NCBI GenBank assembly: GCA_900318175.1 | Contig: ONJQ01000030.1 | Coordinates: 1 to 56,952, forward strand | From: an uncultured Bacteroidales bacterium | GTDB lineage: Bacteria > Bacteroidota > Bacteroidia > Bacteroidales > P3 | Direction of reading: 5' to 3' | DNA: 56,952 bases | Shown here: in pieces, positions 5,246-33,588 of the stretch | How positions within the stretch are numbered: the stretch's first letter is position 1 | Layout: every line of letters starts with the position of its first letter | Made by a program: the position numbers and the translations under genes | Notes under the pieces: model-generated | What the model was told of the DNA's origin: nothing | Databases searched by the model: none | The model's input: only the letters and a program-made list of their open reading frames with translations

Positions 5246-5908
5246 ATGAACCAGGATAATCAGAACACCCTAACCCCCAAGAGTACTCAGAATACTCAGA
5301 GTAATCAGAGTACTCAGAATAGTCAGAGTACTCAGAATAATCAGAGCCTTCAGACCTCCCCAGTAACCTTCCTCCCCAAGCATGGCCATTATCGAAACCT
5401 CCGTGTCTATCAAGTCACCGAGATGGTCTACGACATCACCTACTATTTCACACAACACTACCTGTCCAAAGGCGACCGCACCGTGGACCAGATGGTTCAA
5501 GCCGCACGCAGCGGCAAACAGAATATTGCGGAGGGCAACCAAGCCGCTGCTACATCAAGCGAGACGGAAATCAAACTGACCAATGTGGCCAAAGCCAGTC
5601 TGGAAGAACTGCTCGACGACTACGAGGACTATCTCAGGGTGCGAAACTTGCAGCAGTGGGGACCTCTTCATCCGCGCTATGAGAAGATGCGACAATATGC
5701 ACGTAGTGAGGAGATCAAGAAAGAGTATGCCGCCACCATACAGCGCATGAACGATGAAGAAATAGCCAACCTCTGCATCACGCTCATACATCAGGCGATA
5801 TACATGCTTCACAAGTTGCTGGTCACAATGCAAACCCGTTTCGTGAAAGAGGGAGGCATAAAAGAACGTATGTACCAAAGCCGTATAAACTACCGAAACA
5901 ACCGATAA
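5246..5908 (+). CDS. Four-helix-bundle protein (23S rRNA IVP family), copy A
   Basis: A 220-residue protein. Residues of about 50-215 are the four-helix-bundle family first seen as the protein encoded in 23S rRNA intervening sequences. Diagnostic stretches are RNLRVYQVTEMVYDIT, DQMVQAARSGKQNIAEG, TEIKLTNVAKASLEEL and DYEDYLR. The family is also related to the Avd accessory protein of diversity-generating retroelements. The first 40 residues are Asn/Gln/Ser/Thr-rich because a TCNGA 9-bp tract is translated in frame as repeats of TQN/SQS type. A second tract begins 12 bases after the stop. The copy at 32956-33525 is roughly two-thirds identical over the bundle. Its biochemical role is unknown; it probably binds nucleic acid. 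Confidence 0.85.
   Translation: MNQDNQNTLTPKSTQNTQSNQSTQNSQSTQNNQSLQTSPVTFLPKHGHYRNLRVYQVTEMVYDITYYFTQHYLSKGDRTVDQMVQAARSGKQNIAEGNQAAATSSETEIKLTNVAKASLEELLDDYEDYLRVRNLQQWGPLHPRYEKMRQYARSEEIKKEYAATIQRMNDEEIANLCITLIHQAIYMLHKLLVTMQTRFVKEGGIKERMYQSRINYRNNR
5287..5354. repeat. TCNGA 9-bp tract 1 (8 units)
   Basis: TCAGA cores begin at 5287, 5296, 5305, 5314, 5323, 5332, 5341 and 5350, exactly 9 bp apart. The four bases between cores vary (ATAC, GTAA, GTAC, ATAG and so on). The tract lies inside the 5' end of four-helix gene A. Confidence 0.9.
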
Positions 5909-5919
5909 GTCCAACCCTC

Positions 5920-5942
5920 TCAGAATCATCCGAATAATCAGA
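5920..5942. repeat. TCNGA 9-bp tract 2 (3 units)
   Basis: TCAGA, TCCGA and TCAGA begin at 5920, 5929 and 5938. The tract starts just after the stop of four-helix gene A, so that gene has a tract at both ends. Confidence 0.75.
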
Positions 5943-6004
5943 TTTTCTCAACTTGCCCACCACCGACCAACTAAAAAACATCTTCCCAATTCAAAAAAAA
6001 GTAG

Positions 6005-6012
6005 TATCTTTG
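6005..6012 (+). promoter_or_regulatory. Promoter -7 box of tracrRNA
   Basis: TATCTTTG immediately upstream of the anti-repeat. The usual spacing puts transcription start at about 6018, the first base of the anti-repeat. Confidence 0.7.
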
Positions 6013-6017
6013 CAAAA

Positions 6018-6112
6018 CTTTTTAAGCAATTCACAATAAGGATTATTCCGTTGTGAAAATCTACCAAGGGGGCGGAGAACTTGTTTCTCCGTCGCCTTTA
6101 TAAGAAGTGTAG
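6018..6112 (+). ncRNA. tracrRNA of the type II-C CRISPR-Cas system
   Basis: The anti-repeat at 6018-6037 (CTTTTTAAGCAATTCACAAT) pairs with the first 20 bases of the CRISPR repeat at 19 positions plus one G-U. It is followed by AAGGATTATTCCG, a small nexus-like stem seen in other Bacteroidetes tracrRNAs, then a GTTGTGAAAATC linker. A strong hairpin of GGCGGAGAA against TTCTCCGTCGCC ends near 6098. Only a short TTTA follows, so termination may be leaky and read into the array. The RNA guides RNase III processing of pre-crRNA and docks the guide in Cas9. Both ends are estimates. Confidence 0.85.
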
Positions 6113-6165
6113 TGAAAAATTGATAAACCTCACCCCAATGACATAGTCTACCAACCCAACAAACC

Positions 6166-6197
6166 GCTGATTATTCAGAATACTCCCAAAACTCCGA
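6166..6197. repeat. TCNGA 9-bp tract 3 (4 degenerate units)
   Basis: GCTGA, TCAGA, TCCCA and TCCGA begin at 6166, 6175, 6184 and 6193, 9 bp apart. Two units are degenerate. The tract lies between the tracrRNA and the first CRISPR repeat. Confidence 0.6.
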
Positions 6198-6211
6198 GTC
6201 ATAATTCACCT

Positions 6212-7103
6212 GTTGTGAATTGCTTAAAAAGAGGACATTGACACTTATGATAAACACCCTTCGTCCTGGACAAAGAAGGGAGGGCGCGGTTGTGAATTGC
6301 TTAAAAAGAGGACATTGACACTTATGATAAACACCTGGGTGTGTTTTTTTTATTGATTTGACGATGTTGTGAATTGCTTAAAAAGAGGACATTGACACTT
6401 ATGATAAACACCTTTTGACCAGTGCGATTGACATTGCGTTTTGTTGTGAATTGCTTAAAAAGAGGACATTGACACTTATGATAAACACCTTGCACCATAT
6501 AGTCATAATTCAAAGAGTTGTTGTGAATTGCTTAAAAAGAGGACATTGACACTTATGATAAACACCGTTGTTGATGCTGAGAATATCACCAGAACAGTTG
6601 TGAATTGCTTAAAAAGAGGACATTGACACTTATGATAAACACCAACGAGGCGGCAAAGAGAGCCATGCCCGACGTTGTGAATTGCTTAAAAAGAGGACAT
6701 TGACACTTATGATAAACACCCAGTGCGGAGAGAGGGAAAATTAACCTAAAGTTGTGAATTGCTTAAAAAGAGGACATTGACACTTATGATAAACACCCGC
6801 TCGCCTACGGCTCGCGGACGACACCGGTTGTGAATTGCTTAAAAAGAGGACATTGACACTTATGATAAACACCGTATTCCTTGGCGGAAATATTAACCTC
6901 TAGTTGTGAATTGCTTAAAAAGAGGACATTGACACTTATGATAAACACCCGGTTCAGGGTTGTGTTGTGTGATACCTAAGTTGTGAATTGCTTAAAAAGA
7001 GGACATTGACACTTATGATAAACACCAATCTTCTTTATTTTTATAATATCCACTATGTTGTGAATTGCTTAAAAAGAGGACATTGACACTTATGATAAAC
7101 ACC
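6212..7103 (+). CRISPR. Type II-C CRISPR array, 12 repeats and 11 spacers
   Basis: There are twelve 47-bp repeats, apparently identical, starting GTTGTGAATTGC and ending ATAAACACC. They begin at 6212, 6289, 6366, 6443, 6520, 6597, 6674, 6751, 6827, 6903, 6980 and 7057. Spacers are 29 or 30 bp. The tracrRNA anti-repeat pairs with the 5' part of the repeat as written, so crRNAs are read from the plus strand, towards cas2. Unlike many Bacteroidetes II-C repeats, this one carries no internal TATCTTTG box, and no clear promoter lies between the tracrRNA and the first repeat. Transcription by read-through from the tracrRNA promoter is my inference. Neither end repeat is degenerate, so age order cannot be read from decay. 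Confidence 0.98.
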
Positions 7104-7154
7104 ACGATGTGTGTATCTTTCTGAATTATAATGTCCAAATACATGTCAATGGAT

Positions 7155-7188
7155 TAAAAAATCCCGTCCATATGGGCAGGATTTTTTA
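7155..7188. terminator. Bidirectional terminator between CRISPR array and cas2
   Basis: A 10-bp perfect outer stem (TAAAAAATCC with GGATTTTTTA) encloses a shorter inner stem and an ATAT loop, with A/T runs on both sides. It can end the array transcript on plus and the cas operon on minus. The rest of 7104-7217 holds nothing else I recognise. Confidence 0.75.
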
Positions 7189-7217
7189 TTTCTGGGCGTG
7201 TTTTTCTAATTCTATTG

Positions 7218-7550
7218 TCAAAATAACTCCAATTGTTGTCCTGGCGCATTGGGCGGCACTTCCTTCTTGCAGATGTAAAGCTCAATGTCTGCAAATTGTT
7301 TGTCGGTAATGGTCAGGCAGCCCACTTGTCCATATTGGGGCAGGAACGATCGGACCCGTTTGAGGTGGACTTCGGCGTTTTCGCGAGTGGCGCAGTGGCG
7401 TACATAGATGGAGAATTGGAACATGGTGAAACCATCAGACAAAAGGCGTTTGCGAAAGTCTGAGGCGGCTTTGCGCTCCTTTTTAGTGTCGGTGGGGAGG
7501 TCGAAGAATACGAGCAGCCACATGATGCGGTATTCTGAAAAACGGTCCAT
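7218..7550 (-). CDS. cas2: CRISPR-associated endonuclease Cas2
   Basis: A 110-residue protein with the ferredoxin-like Cas2 core. VFFDLP near residue 16 carries the conserved Asp, followed by a basic helix ([18 protein letters not shown]) and a [10 protein letters not shown] strand. With Cas1 it forms the spacer integration complex. The C-terminus is the short peptide GQQLELF. I chose the ATG at 7550, whose A is the last base of the cas1 stop (TGATG overlap); a GTG one codon earlier is possible. It is the last gene of the cas9-cas1-cas2 operon and ends just before the terminator and array. Confidence 0.95.
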
Positions 7551-8458
7551 CACATTTCGGGGTAGGTGATTTTGCGTATTTCACCGGCAAAGCAGCGTGC
7601 AAGCGATGCCGTGGTCTGTGATGCGGCCACCATGAGGGGACTGCGCTGACCACCGATGTGCACTTCAAGGGTGGGTATGGTGAGGAGGGAGCGCTTGATG
7701 TCGGTGGTGACTTCTGCGGTGCGTGGGTATTGCTTGATGGTCGAGATCACAAGGCGGTCTATGTATGGGCGGTAAGGCTCCATGATGTCGTCGGCCAAGC
7801 AGTAGGCGTTGTAGCGATTGTGGTGATGAATGCCGAATGTTGGGAGAAGCCCGCTGCTGACCAGTGCCCGAGCTATGACGGCACGCAGGATGGCATAGCC
7901 ATAGTTGAGGAAGTTGTTAGGATAAAGCCCTTCACGTCCACGGGTGAAGCCGCAAATGTCTGGAAACATCTGGCTCCAATAGTAGGCGGCGGCTCGCCCT
8001 TCGAGGTTGGTGCTGTCGCCGGAACGTACCTCGGCAGCCCATTGGAGCATATTCCCGTTCTCAGCGTTGTAGAGGTCGTTCAGTAAGGCAGCTTGGTTAA
8101 GGATTTTCTGCTGTACGGTCTGTTGCCATAGTTGCTTGCGTAGGGGAACGGAGGCGGATAGTTGTTCTTGGAAATGTTCGCTTTGCACCGTGTGACCTTC
8201 CAAAGGGAGCATCAATCCCACGGGCATGTGCCGCTCATCGCATGTGATGACAGAGGCGTTGTTGTCCAACAGGGAGGCCATCAGTCCATGGGTGAGAGTG
8301 ATTTGTGGGTTGTCCAATACCACCATGCCGATGTCCTCGATGGGGATGGTGGTCTGTTGTCCGGGCTCATTCCCACGGCTTTCCAGCCTAACAACCAGCT
8401 GCTTGTTCTTCATAGAAAGGTAGGCAGGGTTAGAGAAGCAGAGTGTCCGTTTAATCAT
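7550..8458 (-). CDS. cas1: CRISPR-associated endonuclease/integrase Cas1
   Basis: A 302-residue type II Cas1 that integrates new spacers at the leader end of the array. The metal ligands are visible: Glu in [11 protein letters not shown] near residue 152, His in [17 protein letters not shown] near 209, and the acidic DDIMEPYRP stretch after it. The N-terminal beta domain ([20 protein letters not shown]) is normal. The gene starts 5 bases after the cas9 stop and overlaps cas2 by a base, a tight three-gene operon. There is no cas4 or csn2 here, which fits subtype II-C. Confidence 0.96.
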
Positions 8459-8463
8459 GGCTA

Positions 8464-11400
8464 CTATCCTATTTTGATGATATTTCCTAAATGGTCAACT
8501 TTCAAAGGAATGCAGTTCTCTTTGATCATCTCGCCTGTGAGAGCCTTTTCCATTTTGTTCGATGTTGTAAATTCCATCTTGTTTACAATGGGAGCAGCAA
8601 CTCTATGAGAGATGCACATAAACTGGATACCTGTCATAGAAACAACTTTATAGATTCTGTTGGGATTTGGCGATGTAATACCGTTCTTACGCTCTTCATT
8701 AGTGGGTACATACACCAAGTCCCCTGGAGATAGTATATAAAGGAGATGCGCACCAACTGGCATTAACTCTAAATCCTTTTGCTGAAGCCTATCTGTAAGG
8801 TGTTCTTTCCAGCACTTTTCGTATTGTTTCTGAAGTTCGATGACCACATTAAGAGGGACAGTTGCATATCCACGTGAACCATTCTTATCATTGTAAATGA
8901 CAAAAAATAGGTTGGTGCCTTTTGCTGCTTCAACGTATTTTGTGGCTTTTTGCCCATGGCTTCCCACACTGAACTTATTGGCTTGTTCATATACTCGAAC
9001 TTTTTTGATGGGCATGTGGCAATGTCCTCTGTTCAGATTGTAAATGTTCCTGTTCATGCGTTCAAGGCCGTCGGGAGAAAAAGCTTCGGCAGGGTTATTT
9101 CCTTCTAAAGAGAGATGAGCCTGTAGAATGGCACGGATTCCACTATCTGTAATGCTGTCAATTGCCTTCTGTGCGGCAGACATTGTTGTGATGTCTTTGA
9201 AAATGCTGATAAGGTCTTTTCGTGTTGCAAAGTAACGGTCTTCTGTATCTTTGGTGTAATAGTAGACTTCGATTCTCCCATCAGATGCCTCGGGCCAAAT
9301 ATCTTTGTGTCTGTCAAAGTAGTCTATTATCTGCTTGTTCGAATGATGAAGTGATAAAAACTTTTCTATCTTCTCCTTTAGCTCGCGATCAACAATACTT
9401 TTGGGGTTGGCAAGAGCATCTTTGATTTTTATTCTCTTTTTCAACTGAAGATTAACTTCGCCGAAGACGGTTTCTTTATGGAGAGGCTTTCGGATAGCCC
9501 AACTATCACCTTTCTTTTGTTTTTGCATAGTGGGTTTACCGTTTTCAATGATGGTATAGTAGTTAGATGTTTTGTTGATGATGCGCTGATTCTGTTTAAA
9601 ACTGACTATGATAGTCTCCAGTGCTCTATACACATCCTCAGTAAAAGTGGGCCAGGGCTTTATAAAGTTGCCTGGGCAAGTGTGTTTGTTCCCATGTTCG
9701 TCAACATAGTAGTCCGTAGTGCGGAGTGTGCGCTGGAGGTCGTAACGTGTGGCGCCTTTAGCGTTCTCGTTATTCAATAGGTTGATATGGTTGCGAGTGG
9801 CACAGGCTATAATGATTGCATCCATGGCATGGTGGCGGTGATCAATCCTCTTTTTATTGAAGCCTTGTCGCATATTAAGAGGTACTTGTGGGACTATATG
9901 CCCGTTTTCAGTGGTTGCAGTGTATTCGTTTGAGTTGGTGATGCTGTTCATCCGTTTAAAGCGAGGAAGTATGATGCGGTTCCACACGTCGTTGATTCCC
10001 CATTCTCTTTTCAGACGGTCAGTAATAGTTCCATTGCAAGGAATAACGTTTTTCGAGGTGGCAGACTCTTCGTGGTGGCCTTCTTCATCCTCGGTTCGCA
10101 CAATGTTGGAAAGTAAATGCAACATTAATCGGCTGATGTATCGACTATCATTCATTTGGCGTGAGGTGAATTCCTCTGGAATGTCGTCCAGCATCAGTTT
10201 CTCGCGTTTTTTAGGGTTTGAGAATGTGGTCTTTACCAGTTTCTCGTATGCTTCAAGTGAAAGAATTTCAACAGTGCCACCAAGGTTTAAGGAAACACGT
10301 TCTCCTTGGTGATGAGCGATGAACTCGTGCCCCAACTCTCGGTTTTTGAGTTTGTTTACTTCGGCCTCGCATATGACTTTGTTAGACATCGAGTCGTCGA
10401 ACCACCTGCTTTGGGGTATCACGTGCTCAATTTCGTATGCTTGAGTGAAGAGCTTAGCCAGTGGGATGGGACGACCGGTATAAGGAGAAATGTATTTTTG
10501 GTCAAGCCACAATCGGTATCTTTTGACTTCGGCAGTTGTGGGCTGGTTTTTTGCTGCTGTGAAGCGCTTTTGGATATCCATAATGTCATCGGGAATTTCG
10601 GCTCCACTTTGCATTGCCCCCTCCTCGTATAATTTCAGGATCTCCATCTGAGATGGGGATTGGGGTCGAACGTTCTCTACCTCTAATTCGGGATTCATGA
10701 GCTCTGTTAGAAGCAGTCGGATGCGCTGGTTTGTGGTTTCCCCTTTAAGGATGGACTGGGAAAGGTATTCTCGTTCCGCTTTTGTCTTCTTCAATTCTCG
10801 CCCTAGTTCTATATGGATTTCGTCGATGTGCCCTATTTGTTTCCATATGTCTCTAACCACGCGGAGTGATTCTGTTACTACCTGTTCCACAACAGGATTG
10901 TTCAATGAATTATGACGGAATTTGGCAAGGTACAAGTCAATGTCTTCCGGTTTAGTCCACTTTTGTGCATCTATGGATTCTGAATGGCGGTTATAAACCA
11001 GATAACATGCCTGCCAGGTTTGGAGCCCTTGAAATTGTTGGATGCTACTTAATCCCTTGAATACTTCCCTTACTTTGGGTGTCAGTGTGCTATCCTCTTC
11101 CCCTGTAATGATATGTTCTATGCGGCTGAGGGTTTGTACGTCAATTGCCGATTCCTTCCAGTAGCGGCCTCTTCTCATCAGGGGTAATAGACGTTTGAAG
11201 GCTTTAGCTGAATATGCGCCGTAGTCTTTCTCTTTATACACTGTTAGTTTGTCAAATGCTTGACAGAAAGCATCGGACCGTTGATTGTTCCACCCTTGCT
11301 TATGGGCGATTTTTTTCAGTGCTTTGCTGTATTGAATCTGGTCATCGACAGAATAGAGAAGATGCCATAACAGAAGCTCATTCTCGGAGGTGAGAAAACT

Positions 11401-12930
11401 GGTTTCTATCCCAGCTTTGCGCAAACCACCTAGCAGTACCGTCAGGGTCTCGCCCATGGGGTATTTACGCTCCTGAGCATAGTTCCACCTATAATGGGGC
11501 ATGTCCTTTTTACCAATTCTGAAGTATCTGAGGAGGATCTGTTGGTCAGCTTCTTTAATGGAGGATAGATAATCATAAAGATTGGCATAGCTGTCACCGT
11601 CTGGCAGTAAAGTTGCAGTGATATCCTCTTCGTCTTTATAGATTTTGAGATTGGAAAGAAATTGCCAGAGGCGGAATTCTTGGTATATTGGATGCGATTT
11701 GGCTATGCATTTAATGGCTTTGCCATGACGTTGTTCAAATGGACAGTTGGCAATGAGGCTTCGTTTGCTCTTCAAGGGTCTCTGATAGAATAAAATGTCC
11801 TCTACCAGCAAGTATGTGAACCCCCTTGAGGATATGCTGTTGCGGTAGGCTTCGTTGGAAGGATATATTTCTTCAATACATTTTTTGTAAAGATTCATAT
11901 CTTTGAGTTCGTGCATGTATTGACTTTGTGTGTCAAGGATTTTGCGTAGTTCCTCTTTGTATAATTCTCTGTCAATGGTCTGAACCAAATCACCAATGAT
12001 TTTACGGTCAGGATGGTATATCAGACTATTATAAATAAAAGAGCCAATAGTTTTTCCAGATTGCCGTATGTCGTTTTCTGTCTTGATTTTCCTCAACCCC
12101 CAGTCGTCTTCGCTTGGAGAACTGAGTTTTGGAGTATCATCTTTGTGTGTTCCATCTTTGTCCAATTTGAAGGTGGCGATGAATCCTCTCGTTTTCCCTT
12201 CCCAGTCCGGTTTGGAGAGTAATGGGCGCTTGTATACCCAACCGTTTTCGAGCGTAATATTGAACCATGACTTCCCTTTTTTGTCTTTTTCTCCAGAATC
12301 CTCTACTTTTATTATTTTAAGTTCAAGGTAAGACTTCTCTTCCTGCTTCTCTTCGTCAGGGACTATGCTTTGATCAACTTTCCCGCGCAGTTGGTAGTAG
12401 CCTCGTTTTTGATTGAACTGCATCAGAATCCAAGCAAGTTCTTCTTTACTAATTGGTTTGGATAGGGCTTTTTGCCTCAAATAGTATATCGTCCAGTCGT
12501 AGGGTATTTTTTCAGCAATCCCTGCCTTTCTAAAGTCGGATACCATCTCTTCAAATGAGGATTGGAACAGGAATACATGATTCCCGTCGTTGTCTTCTTT
12601 CCAGGCCAATTTAGGCTCTTTGTCTACTGGCAGTTGCCCATATCTGGATAGTTGTGAGGCAAAATGTTCTGGCAAAAAACCCATAATTCTCAATACACGA
12701 AGCAGTCTTTCACGGCGCAACAGGTATCTTTCTCTTAGCCTGCGCATGCCTCGATATCTTGTGCGCTCCTCGGTAAAAGAAACTGAGTTGCCCTTTTCAA
12801 AGTCCCCCAAACGTCCTGCATCCATGGGTATTATGCGTGAGCCAGCAGCTTCAATGCAGTGCTTCTCATTGTCAATGACAGCCCAGCCAATGCTGTTTGA
12901 GCCTAAATCAAGTCCAACGATTTTTGCCAT
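8464..12930 (-). CDS. cas9: Type II-C Cas9 endonuclease
   Basis: RNA-guided DNA endonuclease of 1488 residues, in the size range of large Bacteroidetes II-C enzymes. RuvC-I is KIVGLDLGSNSIGWAVID with catalytic D8. An Arg-rich bridge helix (RTRYRGMRRLRERYLL) follows near residue 58. RuvC-II (IDEIHIELGRELKK) is near residue 705, HNH (YEIEHVIPQSRWFDDS) near 834 and RuvC-III (KRIDHRHHAMDAIIIA) near 1031. All catalytic motifs look intact. The C-terminal 300 or so residues are the PAM-interacting region and are not obviously close to a characterised enzyme. The gene has more A/T than the flanking genes. A weak TTTCTTTG promoter box lies about 25 bases upstream. Confidence 0.97.
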   Translation of the reverse strand: MAKIVGLDLGSNSIGWAVIDNEKHCIEAAGSRIIPMDAGRLGDFEKGNSVSFTEERTRYRGMRRLRERYLLRRERLLRVLRIMGFLPEHFASQLSRYGQLPVDKEPKLAWKEDNDGNHVFLFQSSFEEMVSDFRKAGIAEKIPYDWTIYYLRQKALSKPISKEELAWILMQFNQKRGYYQLRGKVDQSIVPDEEKQEEKSYLELKIIKVEDSGEKDKKGKSWFNITLENGWVYKRPLLSKPDWEGKTRGFIATFKLDKDGTHKDDTPKLSSPSEDDWGLRKIKTENDIRQSGKTIGSFIYNSLIYHPDRKIIGDLVQTIDRELYKEELRKILDTQSQYMHELKDMNLYKKCIEEIYPSNEAYRNSISSRGFTYLLVEDILFYQRPLKSKRSLIANCPFEQRHGKAIKCIAKSHPIYQEFRLWQFLSNLKIYKDEEDITATLLPDGDSYANLYDYLSSIKEADQQILLRYFRIGKKDMPHYRWNYAQERKYPMGETLTVLLGGLRKAGIETSFLTSENELLLWHLLYSVDDQIQYSKALKKIAHKQGWNNQRSDAFCQAFDKLTVYKEKDYGAYSAKAFKRLLPLMRRGRYWKESAIDVQTLSRIEHIITGEEDSTLTPKVREVFKGLSSIQQFQGLQTWQACYLVYNRHSESIDAQKWTKPEDIDLYLAKFRHNSLNNPVVEQVVTESLRVVRDIWKQIGHIDEIHIELGRELKKTKAEREYLSQSILKGETTNQRIRLLLTELMNPELEVENVRPQSPSQMEILKLYEEGAMQSGAEIPDDIMDIQKRFTAAKNQPTTAEVKRYRLWLDQKYISPYTGRPIPLAKLFTQAYEIEHVIPQSRWFDDSMSNKVICEAEVNKLKNRELGHEFIAHHQGERVSLNLGGTVEILSLEAYEKLVKTTFSNPKKREKLMLDDIPEEFTSRQMNDSRYISRLMLHLLSNIVRTEDEEGHHEESATSKNVIPCNGTITDRLKREWGINDVWNRIILPRFKRMNSITNSNEYTATTENGHIVPQVPLNMRQGFNKKRIDHRHHAMDAIIIACATRNHINLLNNENAKGATRYDLQRTLRTTDYYVDEHGNKHTCPGNFIKPWPTFTEDVYRALETIIVSFKQNQRIINKTSNYYTIIENGKPTMQKQKKGDSWAIRKPLHKETVFGEVNLQLKKRIKIKDALANPKSIVDRELKEKIEKFLSLHHSNKQIIDYFDRHKDIWPEASDGRIEVYYYTKDTEDRYFATRKDLISIFKDITTMSAAQKAIDSITDSGIRAILQAHLSLEGNNPAEAFSPDGLERMNRNIYNLNRGHCHMPIKKVRVYEQANKFSVGSHGQKATKYVEAAKGTNLFFVIYNDKNGSRGYATVPLNVVIELQKQYEKCWKEHLTDRLQQKDLELMPVGAHLLYILSPGDLVYVPTNEERKNGITSPNPNRIYKVVSMTGIQFMCISHRVAAPIVNKMEFTTSNKMEKALTGEMIKENCIPLKVDHLGNIIKIG

Positions 12931-12953
12931 ATGATTCTTTGTTTTTGAATTTG

Positions 12954-12961
12954 CAAAGAAA
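12954..12961 (-). promoter_or_regulatory. Possible promoter -7 box of cas operon
   Basis: TTTCTTTG on the minus strand, one base off TAnnTTTG. It lies about 24 bases upstream of the cas9 ATG. No matching -33 element was found. Confidence 0.35.
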
Positions 12962-13040
12962 CAACTTTTTTCTGAATGTTCTATCCCTTTTGTGTGTTAA
13001 ATATCAATCGTTGGTTGGGGTTGTTTGGGCCTTGAAAAGG

Positions 13041-13076
13041 GCAAGTCCGGAACCGCCTTGGCGGTTCCGGACTTGC
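13041..13076 (-). terminator. Strong hairpin terminator after the 13.1 kb gene
   Basis: A perfect 17-bp inverted repeat (GCAAGTCCGGAACCGCC and its complement) is separated by TT. On the minus strand it is followed by CCCTTTT. It lies 54 bases beyond the stop of the gene ending at 13130 and insulates it from cas9. Confidence 0.7.
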
Positions 13077-22831: not shown

Positions 22832-23538
22832 AAAAGGGCCAGTTGGCGGATGCCTTGGGCGCAGTAGTGCTGGTAGGGGCAGGCGTAGGGTTCCAAGCAG
22901 TGCTTGCCTGTTGGGGTGGCGGGTTCACCGTGGCGGAGGATGTCCTTCATGATGGCGATGTTGCGGACTATGGTGTCCGCTTCGGCGGCAAGCTCTTCGG
23001 TAAGGTCTATGATGACAAAGCGGTTGTCAGAATTATCTGAGTAATCTGAATGGTCGGAGTTATCCGATGGGGCATTGGCGTGGACGATGCTGAAGGTGTT
23101 GATTTGTCGGCAGTGGGAGATGACGTAGTGTTGCAGGGCGGCGTCGCGGCGGTAGGTCTCGCTGAGGGTGCTGCCAGACTTCACCTCGTAGATGTCCAGC
23201 GAGCCGTCGGGACGACGATGTACGACATCGGCCAATACCAGAACATCGTCATACTGGAATCCGGCTTCGAAGAGGTCGACGGTACCGTTATTGTCTATAA
23301 GTTGGGCGGTGAGAGCAGGGTAGGCGCTGGTGTTGCGTTTGAGTTGGGCACTGATGTCTATTCCGTCGGGGAAGGTGTCCTTAAAAGCGTATTCGAATTC
23401 GCGTCCATGGTCGAAGCGGCGCATCTGCTCGGCGGTGTAGCGGGCGAGTTTGGGATTGAAGACGTCTAACCACAGCGCGCGGTCGCACTGGAGACCACGG
23501 ATATATTTTGACTTGGTGAGGAGATAGCCTTGAGGCAT
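22828..23538 (-). CDS. Cas4-like/DUF2779-type PD-(D/E)XK nuclease with iron-sulphur Cys
   Basis: The protein is 236 residues. The N-terminus LLTKSKYIRGLQCDRALWL is the start typical of DUF2779/Cas4-like nucleases. The nuclease core is VLADVVHRRPDGSLDIYEVKSG (Asp, then Glu and Lys). C18 plus three C-terminal Cys (KHCLEPYACPYQHYC) can hold a 4Fe-4S cluster. Relatives are often fused to a longer RNase H-like half; this one is a stand-alone nuclease half. Between two strands, an in-frame PSDNSDHSDYSDNSDN insert comes from a TCNGA 9-bp tract at 23027-23067. It is 10 kb from the cas genes, so a CRISPR role is unproven. DNA repair is as likely. Confidence 0.7.
   Translation of the reverse strand: MPQGYLLTKSKYIRGLQCDRALWLDVFNPKLARYTAEQMRRFDHGREFEYAFKDTFPDGIDISAQLKRNTSAYPALTAQLIDNNGTVDLFEAGFQYDDVLVLADVVHRRPDGSLDIYEVKSGSTLSETYRRDAALQHYVISHCRQINTFSIVHANAPSDNSDHSDYSDNSDNRFVIIDLTEELAAEADTIVRNIAIMKDILRHGEPATPTGKHCLEPYACPYQHYCAQGIRQLALF
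23027..23067. repeat. TCNGA 9-bp tract 4 (5 units), intragenic
   Basis: TCAGA, TCTGA, TCTGA, TCGGA and TCCGA begin at 23027, 23036, 23045, 23054 and 23063. They are translated in frame as a Ser-Asp-rich loop of the Cas4-like nuclease. Confidence 0.9.
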
Positions 23539-25978: not shown

Positions 25979-26024
25979 ATTTTTTCCGTTCAATCTGTTG
26001 TTTCATTTCTGCATTTTCACCGCG

Positions 26025-26414: not shown

Positions 26415-26490
26415 TGTTTCTTGTGGTAATGAAAAGAATATTCGTGCAATTTCACCGCGCATATATGCGGGGTGGTTTTTTTGTGGTCAA

Positions 26491-26931: not shown

Positions 26932-26956
26932 CGTATGCGTCTTCTTTTATAATCCG

Positions 26957-27550: not shown

Positions 27551-27584
27551 CTTCAATCTGTTGTTTCATTCGTTCAGTTTCACC

Positions 27585-27640
27585 GCGCTCATGAGCGGGG
27601 TATTGTTTTTGTGCGAAAATCGGGCTCGCACATGTGCGAG
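27585..27640. other. Two adjacent palindromes in a 220-bp gap
   Basis: CGCTCATGAGCG lies in the context CCGCGCTCATGAGCGGGG, and CTCGCACATGTGCGAG occupies 27625-27640. A similar palindrome, CGCATATATGCG, is in the gap at about 26457-26470. They may be hairpins in the leader of the gene at 26957. The rest of 27551-27776 shows no gene. Confidence 0.45.
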
Positions 27641-27776
27641 GAGCACTTCCGGGCTGAAAATCGGTCTCGCTCGTCAAGCTCGCAGGCAACAGCAGGCGGA
27701 GCGGCCGATAGTGATGTCGGGAATCTGTGCGGAAAGTTCAATATACATTATATTTATTGGTGAAATATTAAGCGAA

Positions 27777-28217
27777 TTAGAAATCGATATGAAATTTAAG
27801 TATTTTGTCTTGCTCAAGCAACAGCTCCGTTTGGTTGTAATCGTTATTGTTTACCAAGACTGATACGGTGTCGCCAATGTTCAGTCTCTTGTAGGTGTCA
27901 TAGCAAATCTGGTCCGAACTATTGTAGGTGCCTCCGTTCACAGAGTATTCATAGACAGCTTTGTATTTAGACCCGTATCCTCCGCCGTAGAATGGCCTCA
28001 CGTCGGTGATGACGGCCTTGACAGTTATAGCATTGTCGTGGTCGAAATTCCCCCTCTCGCATTTGGCTATCGAAACGACGATGCCACACAGCACGGCGAG
28101 TATCAAGATGACTTTCTTTATATTGCTTTTCTTCTTGGTCGATTTCTTCCTCGGAGGTGCTTTTTTTATATTGCTTTTCTTCTTGGTCGATTTCTTCCTC
28201 GGAGGTGCTTTTTTCAT
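27777..28217 (-). CDS. Lys-rich, DUF3592-like membrane protein with duplicated N-terminus
   Basis: The protein is 146 residues. The cytoplasmic N-terminus is a perfect or near-perfect tandem duplication of a 16-residue unit, KKAPPRKKSTKKKSNI (48 bp, DNA 28119-28214). One membrane helix (VILILAVLCGIVVSIA) follows. An extracytoplasmic DUF3592-like beta domain comes last, with VKAVITDVRPF, YEYSVNGGTYNSS and LNIGDTVSVLVNNND. The function is unknown. The highly basic repeat may contact nucleic acid or lipid head groups; this is speculation. Confidence 0.65.
   Translation of the reverse strand: MKKAPPRKKSTKKKSNIKKAPPRKKSTKKKSNIKKVILILAVLCGIVVSIAKCERGNFDHDNAITVKAVITDVRPFYGGGYGSKYKAVYEYSVNGGTYNSSDQICYDTYKRLNIGDTVSVLVNNNDYNQTELLLEQDKILKFHIDF
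28119..28214 (-). repeat. 48-bp tandem duplication inside the 27.8 kb gene
   Basis: Two direct copies of a 48-bp unit, nearly identical at the nucleotide level, encode two copies of a Lys/Pro-rich 16-mer. The near-identity suggests a recent or slippage-maintained duplication. Confidence 0.85.
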
Positions 28218-28264
28218 ATACCTTTTATATTATATGTTATGCATCAATCTTTGGAGGGGGTTGT

Positions 28265-28294
28265 TTCTTCGCGGCGGCTTGCCGCCGCGAAGAA
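28265..28294 (-). terminator. GC-rich hairpin between WG-repeat and DUF3592-like genes
   Basis: TTCTTCGCGGCGG pairs with its complement around a CTTG loop, a 13-bp perfect stem. No T-run follows on the minus strand, so it is a weak terminator or an RNA-stability hairpin. Confidence 0.5.
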
Positions 28295-28371
28295 CAGGAA
28301 TCCACGTGCAAGTTTGTCTTCCATTTCTCGTGCTCTACCAACGAAGCCAGTTGCCCCGTTTCATCAGTTTG

Positions 28372-29181
28372 TCAATTAGGGTAGGCAAGACCTTCGGAGA
28401 AGGAGTGCAGATTGTCGAAACGAACATCGATAATGAGGTTGCCTGCCTTGTCGATGGCACCGCTTTTGTCGCCAATCTTGACGATGGAGCGCCCTTCAAT
28501 GAGGGTGTCGACATGGTCGAATCTCTCGCCGAGCATCACCACGTCGTGGCCTTCGTGGTCGATGAAGCGCCACTTGCCGTCCTTCATCGCTGGTGCCAGT
28601 CCTTCGGAGAAGGACTCGGTCTCGTCGAATTCGGGTGCTATGACACATTTGCCTTCCTTGTTGACAAACCCGCACTTGTCTCCGTCGTTGACGACGACAG
28701 GCATAAGGTCTTCCTCAAAGGTGTAGGCAAAGCTGAACTTTGGCTTTATCACCATCTTACCGGTCTTGTCGATAGCCCCGTATCGCCAATCGCCATCTCC
28801 GACGATGAATTCAGCGGCCGCCAACCCGCAGGAGAAGTTCTCCACGTCGGTACAGTCCTCGCCGAGTTCGGAGAGAACCTTGCCATTTCTGTCTATGATG
28901 TGATAGCCGCCACCGATAGAGCATGCCGCCACTCCCTCGGTGAAGGCAAGGGCGAAGTCGTACTTCGGCTTGATCACCATCTTGCCGTAGCGGTCGATGA
29001 AGCCGTACTTATTGTTGACCTCGACGGCCGCCAGCCCCTCAGAGAAGCCGGATGCCGCGGTGTACTGCGGCGCGATGGCGACATGTCCTTGCCGGTCGAT
29101 GTATCCCCATTTGTTCTTTATCAACACCGCCGCAAGCCCGTCAGAGAAGAGCCAGGGGGATCCTGCCAAACTGTTCTTCAT
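28372..29181 (-). CDS. WG-repeat protein
   Basis: The protein is 269 residues, built almost entirely from WG/KWGYID repeats of about 25-35 residues: GLAAVLIKNKWGYIDRQGHVAI, LAAVEVNNKYGFIDRYGKMVIKPKYD, MPVVVNDGDKCGFVNKEGKC and others, each ending near SEGLA. No signal peptide is evident with this start. WG-repeat beta-propeller-like proteins probably mediate protein-protein contacts; the role is unknown. It lies 3 bases downstream of the transketolase gene on the same strand. Confidence 0.8.
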   Translation of the reverse strand: MKNSLAGSPWLFSDGLAAVLIKNKWGYIDRQGHVAIAPQYTAASGFSEGLAAVEVNNKYGFIDRYGKMVIKPKYDFALAFTEGVAACSIGGGYHIIDRNGKVLSELGEDCTDVENFSCGLAAAEFIVGDGDWRYGAIDKTGKMVIKPKFSFAYTFEEDLMPVVVNDGDKCGFVNKEGKCVIAPEFDETESFSEGLAPAMKDGKWRFIDHEGHDVVMLGERFDHVDTLIEGRSIVKIGDKSGAIDKAGNLIIDVRFDNLHSFSEGLAYPN

Positions 29182-29184
29182 AGG

Positions 29185-30423
29185 CTATTCTTTTTGCCAG
29201 CGTTTGAGCTGGGGGAAGTACTGGCGGAGCTGCTCGCGGTATTCATCGGCGGTGAGGTGCTGGCCGGTATTCTGGTTAAACTGGTCGACAAACTGGACAC
29301 AGAAGTCTATCATCTGCTCCATGGTGCAGTCCTGCGTGAAGTGGCCATCGGCGAAGCAGTACTTGCAGTAGTCGGGATTTTCCGATGTGTCGGACGAGTC
29401 GGACTTGTCAGACGGGTCCGACATTAAGGGCATTCCGCAGCTCTGGCAGTAGCGTTGCTTGGGGGCGCCGGGCTTGCGCTGCAAGACGGCATAGACCTTG
29501 GCCATGATGTCGGCGGCGCGGAGGTGGTAGTTGGTGAGCATTTCGTCGGGCGTGCCGCTCTCGCCGAACTTATCGTCCACAGCCACGTACTCCATTGGGG
29601 TGGGGCAGTGGAGAGCGAGTGTCTGGGCCACGCTGTCGCCGAGACCGCCGTTGAAGAGGTGCTCCTCGCAGGTGACGACGGCGCCGGTCTTGCGGGCGCT
29701 GGCCACGATGGCCTCCACGTCGAGCGGCTTGATGGTGTGGATGTTGATGACTTCGCAGCTGATGCCGACCTTCTCGAGCATCTCGGCGGCCTGCAGGGCT
29801 TCCCACACAAGGTGGCCGCAGGCGAAGAGGGTGACATCCTTGCCCTCGCTTAGCAGCTGGGCCTTGCCGATTTCGAACTTCTCACCCTCGGGCAGGAAGC
29901 AGGGCATCTTGCTGCGGCCGAGGCGCAGATAGACGGGGCCAACGTGCTCGGCGGCGGCCAGCGTGGCGGCCTTGGCCTGGTTGAAGTCGGCGGGTACCAG
30001 CACGGTCATGTTGGGTAGCACCTTCATCAGGGCTATGTCCTCCATGGTCTGGTGCGTGGCGCCGTCCTCTCCGAGAGAGATACCGGCGTGCGAGCCGCAG
30101 ATTTTGACGTTCTTGTTGCTGTAACACAGCACTTGGCGAATCTGGTCATAGACGCGGCCGGTGACGAACTCGGCGAAGCCCCCTATGAAGGGCACCTTGC
30201 CGCAGAGGCTCAGACCAGCGGCGATGCCGACCATATTGGCCTCGGCGATGCCGCACTGGATGAAGCGCTCGGGGAATTCCTTGGCGAAGCCGTCCATCTT
30301 GACGCTGCCTTTCACGTCGGCGCTCAGTGCAACGACATTCTCATTCTTGCGGCCAGCCTCAACAAGGCCTTCGCCCATGCCGGCGCGCAACTCTTTGCTT
30401 GATTGTTTTTCGTAGTGGGTCAT
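29185..30423 (-). CDS. Transketolase C-terminal subunit fused to a zinc-ribbon domain
   Basis: The protein is 412 residues. Residues 1-320 are the pyrimidine-binding and C-terminal domains of split transketolase (LSADVKGSVKMDGFAKEFPERFIQCGIAEANMVGIAAG; the HAGISLGEDGATHQ loop; KPLDVEAI). With the N-terminal subunit at 40725-41573 it would form the thiamine-diphosphate enzyme of the pentose phosphate pathway. Residues of about 325-412 are a separate zinc-ribbon domain (CQSCGMPL, then YCKYCFADGHFTQDCTMEQMIDFC). Between its two knuckles is an in-frame SDPSDKSDSSDTSENPD insert from TCNGA tract 5. The promoter region has been displaced by a restriction-modification module starting 11 bases upstream. 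Confidence 0.88.
   Translation of the reverse strand: MTHYEKQSSKELRAGMGEGLVEAGRKNENVVALSADVKGSVKMDGFAKEFPERFIQCGIAEANMVGIAAGLSLCGKVPFIGGFAEFVTGRVYDQIRQVLCYSNKNVKICGSHAGISLGEDGATHQTMEDIALMKVLPNMTVLVPADFNQAKAATLAAAEHVGPVYLRLGRSKMPCFLPEGEKFEIGKAQLLSEGKDVTLFACGHLVWEALQAAEMLEKVGISCEVINIHTIKPLDVEAIVASARKTGAVVTCEEHLFNGGLGDSVAQTLALHCPTPMEYVAVDDKFGESGTPDEMLTNYHLRAADIMAKVYAVLQRKPGAPKQRYCQSCGMPLMSDPSDKSDSSDTSENPDYCKYCFADGHFTQDCTMEQMIDFCVQFVDQFNQNTGQHLTADEYREQLRQYFPQLKRWQKE
29372..29421. repeat. TCNGA 9-bp tract 5 (6 units), intragenic
   Basis: Cores begin at 29372, 29381, 29390, 29399, 29408 and 29417; the first is TCGGG and the rest are TCNGA. They are translated in frame between the two Cys pairs of the zinc-ribbon domain. 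Confidence 0.88.
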
Positions 30424-30436
30424 AATATTATTGTTT
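30294..30436 (-). repeat. 143-bp direct repeat, left copy
   Basis: Covers the 5' end of the intact transketolase C-subunit gene. It aligns without gaps to 32751-32893, with 7 mismatches (about 95% identity). It abuts the restriction-modification module exactly. Confidence 0.92.
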
Positions 30437-31124
30437 ATTTTGTTTTCAATCGTTCTATTTCTTTTGATATTCCATCGATTACTTCAGGGTTTGCTATCTT
30501 TCCGTCCAAACTGAATACTACAAAAACCTCTCCACCAAAAGTTTCTTTAAAACTCTCAAAACTCGCTTTCATTCTTTCTGTTAATGAGTAGCCACCGAAG
30601 TTTGCGTTGGCAGTTACAGGCTTGATTTGAATGCCAATTTGATATTTGTCCACATGTGCTATATAATCTATATCACCTGCGTGGTCAAGTTCAGGGTCAC
30701 TTTCCTCAAAGGTTATGTCTTTAAATATCTTTGCCAATCCGTCGTTTACGACGGACTTTTCCCGTTGGTAGCCATCGAAAGTTCGGTTAATGGTCAGATT
30801 GTACACATAGTCGATACAGTCTTGGCGAGTTAAAGAGGCTATGGCTTCTTGTAATTGAGGAATCACAAGTTCCGTCATTTTTGTATATAGACGTTCTCCA
30901 AGTTCCAATAGTGACTCCCTTGATATTTTGACTGGAGTTTTCCCTTCAGTCATTGCGTTTTCAAAATACCAGCTTTCCCACTCTTCAATAGATGAAGGTT
31001 GGCATTGACGAATTAAATTCATCACGGCTCCAACTTTATTTGGACGTGTTAGTTGGTATAATTGGCATGTATGATTCAAAAGAAACTCTTTTTTGCCAGC
31101 AAAGGTCATGGAATATGTTTTCAT
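30435..31124 (-). CDS. Putative type II restriction endonuclease (MjaI-like)
   Basis: The protein is 229 residues. The opening (MTFAGKKEFLLNHTCQLYQLTRPNKVGAVMNLIRQC) resembles MjaI-type restriction enzymes, whose RPNKVG segment is characteristic. A PD-(D/E)XK-like centre is seen in the DIDYIAHVDKYQIGIQIKPV segment, with Gln at the usual Glu position. It would cut unmethylated DNA; MjaI recognises CTAG, but specificity here is unknown. It is the last gene of a three-gene module (methylase, small HTH protein, nuclease) and 3 bases from the HTH gene. The module has low GC relative to its surroundings. Confidence 0.7.
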   Translation of the reverse strand: MKTYSMTFAGKKEFLLNHTCQLYQLTRPNKVGAVMNLIRQCQPSSIEEWESWYFENAMTEGKTPVKISRESLLELGERLYTKMTELVIPQLQEAIASLTRQDCIDYVYNLTINRTFDGYQREKSVVNDGLAKIFKDITFEESDPELDHAGDIDYIAHVDKYQIGIQIKPVTANANFGGYSLTERMKASFESFKETFGGEVFVVFSLDGKIANPEVIDGISKEIERLKTK

Positions 31125-31127
31125 ATA

Positions 31128-31439
31128 TTATATTTGATTATTAGGATTTGCATTATTCCACATATTTCTTATATCATCACTTCTGTTAATCACTTTTTGG
31201 GCTCTTCTTCTCAGTGAGGCAATATACTCTCTGACTTCTTCGATGTCATTGGACTGCCAGTAACCACTATTTGTACTCACAATAAAATGTCCTTGTGCAA
31301 TAGCTTCTCTAATTAGTTTTCTTGTCTCAACTTGATTTCCATTTGTCGGAAGATGCAGTTGACGAGCAATATCTTCCGCACGGGTTGCATTTTGTTTCCC
31401 ATAGGGAATAGTCCTTAATAATTGCTGAATTGTTGCCAT
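31128..31439 (-). CDS. Small winged-helix protein of the restriction-modification module
   Basis: The protein is 103 residues. The sequence ATRAEDIARQLHLPTNGNQVETRKLIREAIAQGHFIVSTNSGYWQSN fits a winged-helix fold (helix-turn-helix plus a GYW wing). Such small proteins sit between methylase and nuclease genes in some type II systems. It could be a controller that delays nuclease expression, or a specificity helper; neither can be decided here. It is 4 bases from the methylase stop and 3 from the nuclease start. Confidence 0.65.
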   Translation of the reverse strand: MATIQQLLRTIPYGKQNATRAEDIARQLHLPTNGNQVETRKLIREAIAQGHFIVSTNSGYWQSNDIEEVREYIASLRRRAQKVINRSDDIRNMWNNANPNNQI

Positions 31440-31443
31440 AATA

Positions 31444-32733
31444 TTAATAGTTTATAAATTTGTTTCGATATTTGTATGCTATACTTGTGTCTGCTATTGC
31501 CAGCTTCTCTTTTAGAATATGTGCATTTATAAATGTCCGGTTTTCTAAATACAAATAGCATAATAGTTGATTTTGTGAGTCGTACTTTATTTCGTCAAAC
31601 CGCATGTATACCTTATGCCCTTTCGTTTTGTTTAAAAGGTAATCTGTTGCCTGTTCAATTTTGGTCGGGTTTGGTTCAACACCTAATAGCTTTACGACTA
31701 ACCCCGTGTTTAATTCTAATAAATTGGGTGACAATACATGTTTCACCGAAAAAAGTTCTTCTCGCACACTGCCATTTTTATCTATTTTTGAACCAAATTG
31801 AAGTTTCTTTACATCCACATGGTTGTTCAACTTTAATGGATCACGAAACAGATATGGTAGAGTGTTTAACTGGCCATCATACAGGTAAGAATCCTCGTCT
31901 ACTCGAATGTTGTATATATTTTGGTCTAACAACGAATTGCTAATTACTTTCTGCTCATAGTACTGCCTATAATCCTTGTTGATTTCATATCCAATTGAAT
32001 TACGACTAAGTTTCTTTGCCGCTAAAGCTGTAGTCCCACTGCCCATAAATGGGTCAAAAACTGTTTCGCCAACAAAAGAGAACATCTTTATAAGCCTTGC
32101 GGGAAGTTCTTCTGGAAACATTGCTATGTGTCCGTCTTGACGTGCACCGGCAAAATTCCAATGAGAAGCAAATAGTTTGTTCCACTCCTCCTTGCCAATT
32201 TCTGACATTTCTTTCTGCTCTTTTGTTGGTACAGGAGCCTTGCCTTGTTTTTTGAAGATTAGGATAAACTCGTAGTCAATTTTTAGTATTCCATTTCGAG
32301 GGTATGGAAAGCTACCCATAACAGCACCGCCCCCAGTAGTGTGCATTGTAGTTTGTTTTTGCCATATTACTGCACCCATGTAGTCAAGCCCCAATGTTTC
32401 GCAAAAACGGATTATTTCTGTACGAATAGGGATTACTTTATACCTACCATAATATACAGAACGAGCAAATTGGTCTCCAATGTTGATGCACAATCTACAC
32501 CCGTCTTTCAAAATACGGTTGCATTCAGACCACACGAGGTTTAAATTGTTTATGTATGCCTCATAGCTCTCATTAAAGCCAATTTGATTATCAGTTCCAT
32601 AGTCTTTCAACTGCCAGTATGGTGGCGATGTGATGATGAGATGCACGGATTTGTCCGGCATTATACTCATTTTTCTACTATCACCATTGATGAGGGTGTG
32701 TTTTGTTTGTATTGTATTATTGTTTCCAGTCAT
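31444..32733 (-). CDS. Type II DNA methyltransferase (beta class, probably N4-cytosine)
   Basis: The protein is 429 residues. The catalytic motif IV TSPPYWQLKDYG comes first, and motif I VFDPFMGSGTTALAAKKLSR follows near residue 235, the beta-class order. SPPYW is typical of N4-cytosine enzymes, consistent with M.MjaI-like CTAG methylation, though N6-adenine cannot be excluded. The C-terminal 150 residues are less conserved and may hold the target recognition part. It protects the host DNA against the nuclease encoded two genes downstream. The start lies 17 bases from the right 143-bp repeat, so its promoter must lie within or beyond that repeat. Confidence 0.9.
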   Translation of the reverse strand: MTGNNNTIQTKHTLINGDSRKMSIMPDKSVHLIITSPPYWQLKDYGTDNQIGFNESYEAYINNLNLVWSECNRILKDGCRLCINIGDQFARSVYYGRYKVIPIRTEIIRFCETLGLDYMGAVIWQKQTTMHTTGGGAVMGSFPYPRNGILKIDYEFILIFKKQGKAPVPTKEQKEMSEIGKEEWNKLFASHWNFAGARQDGHIAMFPEELPARLIKMFSFVGETVFDPFMGSGTTALAAKKLSRNSIGYEINKDYRQYYEQKVISNSLLDQNIYNIRVDEDSYLYDGQLNTLPYLFRDPLKLNNHVDVKKLQFGSKIDKNGSVREELFSVKHVLSPNLLELNTGLVVKLLGVEPNPTKIEQATDYLLNKTKGHKVYMRFDEIKYDSQNQLLCYLYLENRTFINAHILKEKLAIADTSIAYKYRNKFINY

Positions 32734-32745
32734 AGTCTGTATGTA

Positions 32746-32880
32746 TTATCCCATCTTGACGCTGCCTTTAACGTCGGCGCTCAGGGCGACGACATTCTCG
32801 TTCTTGCGGCCAGCCTCTACAAGGCCTTCGCCCATGCCGGCGCGCAACTCTTTCATTGATTGTTTTTCGTAGTGGGTCAT
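32746..32880 (-). pseudogene. Truncated 5' copy of the transketolase C-subunit gene
   Basis: ATG at 32880 opens a 44-codon frame. It reads MTHYEKQSMKELRAGMG through KGSVKM, like the N-terminus of the gene at 29185-30423, then ends in GGATAA at the junction with the restriction-modification module. Of the 7 differences from the intact copy, 5 are synonymous and 2 fall in one codon. The divergence therefore looks like that between functional alleles, not like decay after duplication. Confidence 0.88.
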
Positions 32881-32893
32881 AATATTATTGTTT
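32751..32893 (-). repeat. 143-bp direct repeat, right copy
   Basis: Matches 30294-30436. The two copies bracket a 2314-bp restriction-modification module at 30437-32750. Confidence 0.92.
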
Positions 32894-32914
32894 TGTTGAT
32901 TATTCTTTTATTGG

Positions 32915-32955
32915 TCGGACTTGTCGGACTAGTCAGACAAGTCTGACAATTCTGC
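32915..32955. repeat. TCNGA 9-bp tract 6 (5 units)
   Basis: Cores begin at 32915, 32924, 32933, 32942 and 32951; the last is TCTGC. The tract ends on the base before the stop codon of four-helix gene B. Confidence 0.88.
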
Positions 32956-33525
32956 TTAATTTGTCTTTCCATTGCGATAGTTTAGTCTTGCTCTGGTCAT
33001 TTGTTCTCTTACGCCACCTTCTTGGAGAAACTGCTGTTGTTGCTTCTCTATCAGTCGGCGGAGCATGTAGGTTGCTTGGTTAATCAGTGTGATGCAGAGA
33101 TTGGCGAGTTCCTCGTCGTTCAACTTCTGCAATAGGGTCGGATACTCAGCATATATCTTCTCACATCGGGCGTACTCGCGCATTGGCTCGTATCGTGGGT
33201 GTCCACTTTTCCATTGCGTCAGATTGTGCTGTCGCAGGTAGTCTTCATAATCTACCAACAACTCTTCTAAACTGGCTTTGGCAACATTGGTCAGCTTTAT
33301 CTCTGTCTCACGCGATGTGGTGGCTGCCTCACTTCCCTCGGCGATATTTTGTTTGCCACTCCTCGCTGCCTGCACCATCTGGTCTATGGTGCGGTCACCC
33401 TTGCCAAAGTAGGTGTGCGCAAAGTGATAGGTGATGTCGCAGACTATCTCTGTCACCTTGTACACCCGCAGCTTGCGGTAGCCACCGAGGGGCTTCAAAA
33501 ATGGCTTGGGTTCGTTGTTGGGCAT
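32956..33525 (-). CDS. Four-helix-bundle protein (23S rRNA IVP family), copy B
   Basis: The protein is 189 residues, all one four-helix bundle. YRKLRVYKVTEIVCDITYHF, DQMVQAARSGKQNIAEG, TEIKLTNVAKASLEEL, DYEDYLR and RARLNYRNG are shared with copy A at 5246-5908, at roughly two-thirds identity. It lacks copy A's Asn/Gln-rich leader. TCNGA tracts adjoin it on both sides (32915-32955 and 33548-33588), as for copy A. The family is encoded inside 23S rRNA intervening sequences and is related to DGR Avd proteins; its role here is unknown. There is no adjacent reverse transcriptase. Confidence 0.85.
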   Translation of the reverse strand: MPNNEPKPFLKPLGGYRKLRVYKVTEIVCDITYHFAHTYFGKGDRTIDQMVQAARSGKQNIAEGSEAATTSRETEIKLTNVAKASLEELLVDYEDYLRQHNLTQWKSGHPRYEPMREYARCEKIYAEYPTLLQKLNDEELANLCITLINQATYMLRRLIEKQQQQFLQEGGVREQMTRARLNYRNGKTN

Positions 33526-33547
33526 TGTTTGTTGTTTTTAGGGTTTG

Positions 33548-33588
33548 TCGGACTTGTCAGACTAGTCTGAATAGTCCGACTCGTCTGA
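33548..33588. repeat. TCNGA 9-bp tract 7 (5 units)
   Basis: TCGGA, TCAGA, TCTGA, TCCGA and TCTGA begin at 33548, 33557, 33566, 33575 and 33584. The tract lies 22 bases upstream of the start of four-helix gene B. Confidence 0.9.

Follow-up and report, generated by a model that had tools for sequence, protein, structure and literature searches.

The DNA considered here is contig ONJQ01000030.1 (assembly GCA_900318175.1) of an uncultured Bacteroidales bacterium of lineage P3; the whole stretch of 56,952 nt is referred to as the window. It carries two four-helix-bundle genes, A and B, bounded by tandem tracts of the pentamer TCNGA. Gene A (5246–5908, forward strand) encodes 220 residues with a conserved core that starts near residue 40, and gene B (32956–33525, reverse strand) encodes 189. 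Both contain a four-helix bundle (TIGR02436, scores of 29.8 for A and 27.9 for B against a cut-off of 24) followed by a strong match to the 49-residue suffix domain TIGR04258, '4helix_suffix' (74 and 85 bits; curated cut-off 40). The scores against the Pfam family PF05635 (23S_rRNA_IVP), 28.7 and 26.9, lie below its gathering score of 33.8. An earlier prediction, made from the letters of the window, had described two IVP-family genes about two-thirds identical, and the proteins are indeed 66% identical over 182 residues. Domain profiles returned four-helix and suffix domains only; neither A nor B showed a transposase domain. A divergent third IVP-family gene (49874–50350, reverse strand), correctly described as free of tracts, is also free of the suffix domain; it was rejected as a member of the same system and served as the negative control. 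A plasmid search with this third copy as query gave zero matches.

The window contains 20 exact matches to three TCNGA cores at a 9-bp period; 100 dinucleotide shuffles predict 0.00, and chance is rejected as their origin. The 20 matches form seven tracts, and one degenerate tract stands beside them. Gene A has an eight-unit tract (5287–5354, forward) that is translated within its 5′ end as a Q/N/S/T-rich sequence and folds better than shuffles (z −3.4), and a three-unit tract on its 3′ side (5920–5942, forward) with no hairpin signal (z 0.0). The 3′ tract of unit B (32915–32946, reverse, four units) and its 5′ tract (33548–33588, reverse, five units) each form a hairpin alone (z −4.3 each). 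The exact pattern count confirms tracts at both ends of A and of B, one of them inside the 5′ end of gene A. Four other tracts stand alone, as the original prediction had it, provided that the degenerate one (6175–6197, forward, one mismatch) is counted. The remaining three are a five-unit tract at 23027–23067 (forward), where the congener G099 has other sequence; a five-unit tract at 29381–29421 (reverse), in frame in a C-terminal zinc ribbon fused to tktC; and a four-unit tract at 34177–34208 (reverse), at the 3′ end of a GyrI-like gene. The predicted limits of unit B, 32915 and 33588, coincide with homology breaks in relatives; the left limit of unit A is less clear because the gene start at 5246 falls outside the tract, and no empty site for A came to light, none having been looked for.

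The tracts at A and B are the visible part of something larger. The whole host genome holds four suffix genes, the other two of which have different cores, ACTAG at C47 and GATAG/CTATC at C69. The three-core TCNGA pattern has 59 forward matches in this genome and none when reversed. The window and ten further stretches (L049–L058) contain at least 22 tracts of at least three consecutive units, four of which flank A or B and 18 of which lie elsewhere. Their spacers fall into two dialects: CNNG, seen at B, and a second that is mostly NTAN, seen at A. Few tracts mix the two, and by majority seven are CNNG and 15 NTAN.

Unit A adjoins a CRISPR-like array with a 77-bp repeat-spacer period (6211–7103) and a gene for a 1488-residue Cas9 (8464–12930). 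The occurrence of IVP genes in cas loci was already on record, in an account whose passage on them does not mention tracts (PMC3936711).

Suffix genes, their cores and dispersed tracts

Of 149 genomes of the same family, 71 encode the suffix domain TIGR04258; none of 14 control genomes does. A set of 136 open reading frames was extracted from 133 loci, leaving out about a dozen further suffix matches, mostly weak or partial. Periodicity was scored as self-similarity of at least 12 at a given lag in 200-bp flanks, with control windows placed at least 500 bp away. Lag 9 reaches this score in 60.9% of 271 suffix-gene flanks (one masked run of N included) compared with 1.9% of 259 control windows. 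The score is also reached at lag 18 (56.5% of flanks) and lag 27 (39.9%), and the other lags from 4 to 30 account for 0.7–5.9% of flanks and 0–1.5% of controls. The best 80 GTDB loci, a partly independent set in which at least ten contigs are apparently shared with the first, show the lag-9 signal in 67.3% of 159 flanks and in 3.1% of 290 windows. Seven of these loci are titled outside Bacteroidota, all of them metagenome-assembled (two Chlorobiota, one Ignavibacteriae, two Schlesneria, one Verrucomicrobiae and one Blastocatellia), and five of the seven have the lag-9 signal in a flank. We take Schlesneria to belong to the Planctomycetes and Blastocatellia to the Acidobacteriota. The flanking tracts of four suffix loci (L253, L261, L282 and L296) have a 10-bp rather than a 9-bp step.

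Two broader origins of the tracts were rejected. A general feature of the genomes is at odds with the 1.9% of control windows and with the scarcity of the reversed TCNGA pattern, which has 0–3 matches per genome except in G130 (10) and G009 (7); reversal is no control for CTATC, which reads the same reversed. Spread by phages or plasmids is at odds with database matches that are absent or single. No relative was found among viral contigs and no relative of B among phages, and one of 72,556 plasmid records matched, a 568-kb Prevotella nigrescens replicon with CCTAG 9-mers downstream of its suffix gene.

The core of the tract follows the clade of the protein. A FastTree phylogeny was built from 133 protein cores, three short fragments being excluded, and 28 of the 133 proteins have no assigned core, nine of which make up a divergent sister clade with zero tracts. 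The tree carries 17 core labels with 'none' included and 16 without it, some overlapping and five occurring once. The label changes 28 times on the tree against a shuffled mean of 88.9, and none of 200 shuffles is as low. TCNGA tracts accompany all 27 genes of the A/B clade; CCGGA (six of six) and ATKGA (five of five) each form a single clade, and CCCAT and CTATC mark 25 of 26 and eight of nine genes of their respective clades. Near-copies at one locus inflate such clade counts, as for CCCAT, of which 24 of 25 genes share the tktC context; the 27 TCNGA genes lie in 11 flank contexts. The TCTAGA label is unclustered (five rows, five changes), so CTAG-type cores may have shifted repeatedly, or the label scheme may overlap. 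The original prediction had proposed to check whether members of the A/B clade, and no others, bear tracts. The first part stands at 27 of 27 and the second is not supported, since other suffix clades bear tracts of other cores.

Gene-side tracts of non-palindromic cores have a constant architecture. Where they are two-armed, a purine-rich array is followed by a pyrimidine-rich array in all 39 cases across four clades; CCCAT genes supply 24 of these cases, almost all from a single locus. A further 11 gene-side tracts have one arm. Eight solo loci of non-palindromic cores show a single orientation only (nine of nine runs). Over 144 gene tracts of all classes the median fold z is −3.4. RNA folding of the CCCAT class is neutral (median z 0.0 over 24 tracts), a value to which automatic segments that may cut this class could contribute.

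Dispersed tracts go with the resident gene. Three-unit matches of five cores were counted in 149 genomes after removal of the fetched gene loci and compared among 79 congeners, with p values that ignore kinship. The median number of solo TCNGA matches is 62 in congeners with a TCNGA-clade gene and 4.5 in those without (p 4.7e-8), and all 23 congeners with the gene have some. Enrichment of the own core is also found for CCCAT (p 0.0036), ACTAG (9.1e-5), CTATC (1.2e-4) and CCGGA (2.6e-5), and for every core, of the five clades compared, the matching one gives the smallest p.

Tracts in coding sequence and the edges of unit B

Solo tracts enter protein genes. The gene named valS by NCBIfam, surveyed at the best 30 loci of 78 genomes, has two loops with in-frame tracts, which are read as Ser-Asp-Lys/Gln repeats at site 2, and ileS (also an NCBIfam name) has a tract within its open reading frame. 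At site 2, across 27 congeners, there are four to seven exact units in six, three in G086, and none or a single core in 20; at site 1, also in 27, four or eight units occur in five, two in two, and none or one in 20. Site 1 differs even between the near-twins G073 and G091. Either the occupied or the empty state may be the older one. In the host's own valS (L053, about 5590–5690), a direct duplication of about 45 bp beside the first tract breaks the frame and may be an assembly error. The site-1 loop of G002, G163 and G166 (L212, L215 and L217) holds another tandem repeat, with a 7-bp step and AGAACGG-like units. At a further place (L050, 4682–4713) an intergenic tract replaces, or derives from, an apparent intrinsic terminator in G099 (L301).

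Passive minisatellites, in which slippage and conversion create and spread the 9-bp arrays while the gene hitch-hikes, would account for the variable unit number, and a 9-bp step keeps reading frames; the 7-bp repeat in the valS loop of three congeners fits them too. Slippage alone sits badly with clade-specific cores, with scarcity in control windows, with the constant polarity of the arms and with spacers that vary beside constant cores within tracts, and we consider this explanation very unlikely. The tracts could instead be arrays of binding sites, operators selected for clade-specific regulators or chromosome organisers, with movement as a by-product of recombination. Tracts beside the genes suggest autoregulation, several solo tracts are intergenic and adjoin gene ends, and in a 600-bp block that is 98% identical between G000 and G099 the tract differences all fall outside the TCNGA cores. 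In-frame tracts in the coding sequence of valS, ileS and tktC, tract presence or absence that differs between congeners, and a copy of the 34177–34208 tract in G091 with changed cores and unchanged spacers speak against such arrays, which we judge unlikely.

The same in-frame tracts bear on the proposal that solo tracts are ends left by excision. As a general account this is unlikely because several of the tracts sit within essential genes that a gene-sized unit would break (valS, ileS, tktC), and eight of the nine solo loci examined for non-palindromic cores have one orientation, in contrast to the inverted pairs that make up most gene-side tracts of those cores. The ninth, L328 (G135:C132, 2059–2135), chosen because it has matches on both strands, is a two-armed CCCAT tract of the same polarity between two unrelated genes, with the suffix-gene signature absent within 4 kb. 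It may be a scar of excision or a two-armed tract that was dispersed; some solo tracts could therefore still be scars.

The edges of unit B are sharp in relatives. Congener G099 lacks a 1.3-kb segment (34221–32915) whose edges lie 13 and 0 bp from tracts: homology stops at 34222, 13 bp short of the tract that ends at 34208, and restarts at 32914, adjoining tract 32915–32946. In G099 the GyrI-like gene is joined directly to the tktC leader; at this place the window carries, in order, a tract, a gene for a GNAT acetyltransferase (33625–34164, reverse), a tract, gene B and a tract. Precise empty sites had been suggested as a check, and the segment missing from G099 is bounded by tracts; it includes the GNAT gene besides the unit. 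In relatives with a CCCAT unit at this place, homology to the window runs to 33589–33609 and again from 32894–32912, just outside unit B. The flank homology of G077 and G103 stops at 33589, and G077 has another gene between flank and unit, with the break at 33588/33589. The tktC survey took the best 30 of 61 matching genomes among 78, and 28 of the 30 loci are readable: two have close TCNGA units, 13 have CCCAT units, one has a distant TCNGA unit, and 12 have no suffix gene within 1.5 kb.

These states also suit a different account, in which the units are recombination cassettes, with tktC among the hot spots where this cargo is swapped, the tracts provide short homology only, and the job of the protein is unrelated. 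The three states at tktC (TCNGA unit, CCCAT unit, no suffix gene) are what it would produce, and gene turnover and a restriction-modification insertion occur at the same place. It leaves unexplained both the match between the solo-tract core and the resident gene clade and the 9-bp step common to different cores, and we hold it to be quite unlikely.

The restriction-modification cassette (29185–32872) is of type II and consists of a MjaI-like endonuclease, a small open reading frame and a DNA methylase. It is flanked on one side by full-length tktC and on the other by 130 bp that repeat the 5′ end of tktC at 95% identity, an arrangement that looks like an insertion with a long target duplication. 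Several partial tktC starts occur in other congeners, such as G097.

A putative specificity factor and its counterparts

The explanation we favour, and think somewhat probable, is that the suffix protein recognises its own core and guides another enzyme in inserting or extending short tracts. It draws on the concordance of core and protein, the enrichment of matching tracts, presence or absence among congeners, variation in unit number, in-frame tracts and the homology breaks; recognition is better supported than active insertion. Each clade of suffix four-helix proteins would have its own short core at a 9-bp step, with tracts at the ends of the gene and dispersed in the host. Gene-side tracts, as hairpins or inverted-pair arrays, would mark the unit, and the IVP/Avd-type protein would be the probable specificity factor, recognising its core in DNA or RNA. 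Short tracts would be inserted and lengthened elsewhere in trans. Catalysis would presumably come from the host or from an unlinked enzyme and may pass through RNA or cDNA, as with the related Avd proteins. The pattern appears to be a partnership for spreading repeats in which no known transposase takes part.

A number of observations weigh against this explanation. Some solo tracts are plainly inherited, such as one at C18:2630 that is identical in G000 and G099, and the cores of the 34177 tract have decayed in G091. A tract stands on one side only of 12 of the 27 TCNGA genes (ten 5′ only and two 3′ only, against 15 with both). Among 56 genomes with no detected TCNGA gene, 21 have at least ten solo TCNGA matches, which gene loss or incomplete assemblies could explain, as could independence of tract and gene. 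In nine genome-gene cases the resident core has at most one solo match (five CCCAT, two CTATC, one ACTAG and one CCGGA), and CTATC tracts associate with TCNGA genes (p 2.1e-4) as well as with their own (1.2e-4). The well-supported branches of the valS tree offer three independent pairs only, of which two agree, none opposes and one is a tie. Target-site duplication was not seen in the G099 alignment, and the typed neighbours include no nuclease, recombinase or reverse transcriptase plausible as the mover, the restriction enzyme of the cassette aside. Both the binding of tracts by the protein and the insertion driven by it are steps that we infer.

The closest parallel is the RAYT family, for which cognate flanking repeats, co-evolution of repeat and protein, and repeat numbers that track the presence of the gene have been described, with flanks reported always on both sides (PMC2817692). 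The likeness here extends to a cognate repeat flanking the gene and to repeat number following it for all five cores. RAYTs are tyrosine (HUH/Y1) nucleases, and the system of A and B is not a RAYT system because its protein is an IVP/Avd-type bundle without a nuclease, with four-helix and suffix domains only. The repeats differ as well: each repetitive extragenic palindrome is a single palindrome headed by GT(A/G)G, while the tracts are tandem arrays with a 9-bp step, have cores of great diversity and are found also in coding sequence. Insertion sequences and miniature inverted-repeat transposable elements (MITEs) differ in that A and B lack a transposase domain and the G099 alignment lacks a target-site duplication.

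Relations to the intervening sequences of 23S ribosomal RNA (rRNA) run through the protein. A profile of 36 family members weakly matches 2GSC, XCC0516 (E 0.0044), which suggests the same superfamily, S23/IVP. In those intervening sequences an open reading frame lies in an element with complementary ends, and IVP-family proteins are described as being without a known function (PMC4990558). The A/B-clade genes differ in occupying many flank contexts, with typed neighbours of B and an upstream neighbour of A that are protein genes rather than rRNA genes (no rRNA search was run), and in having 9-bp tracts as ends, copies of which are dispersed genome-wide. PF05635 proteins are said to resemble Avd (PMC10053308). 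The likeness to diversity-generating retroelements goes no further among the ten typed neighbours (nine around B, one beside A), which include no reverse transcriptase; whole genomes were not searched, and a template-repeat and variable-repeat pair was not looked for. Rickettsia palindromic elements are short repeats placed in frame within protein genes, and we know of no partner gene for them. They share with the tracts the in-frame position and differ in lacking the 9-bp tandem architecture. BrickBuilt, a minisatellite MITE of Porphyromonas gingivalis, has tandem repeats in a mobile element of Bacteroidota, with 23-bp units compared with 9 bp here, and the main text on it does not contain the term 'four helix' (PMC4596501). 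Judged by titles, abstract openings and passages, the literature searched does not describe tracts with the suffix-domain family; the curated text of TIGR04258 might mention repeats.

The original prediction of a possible mobile unit without a transposase is supported in part. The tract-bearing A/B clade, its 11 flank contexts, the homology breaks and the want of a transposase domain in A and B speak for it; exclusivity is not supported, and excision is unlikely as a general account. A mechanism related to Avd retrohoming is still something we infer. Tentatively, and short of thinking it probable, we propose that the suffix proteins, as a large family, recognise specific sequences, that their target cores changed often, and that they spread tracts without a nuclease of their own, probably by an Avd-like RNA or cDNA step. 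Besides Bacteroidota, the system would occur in some genomes that were assembled from metagenomes and carry the titles Chlorobiota, Ignavibacteriae, Schlesneria and Blastocatellia.

The 16 core labels offer many natural pairings of core and protein, and specificity is directly testable pair by pair. If the proteins direct insertion, repeats would spread without a linked transposase and enter essential genes in three-codon steps. If they only bind, they would still be a new protein family that recognises tracts, and its specificities would be easy to compare.

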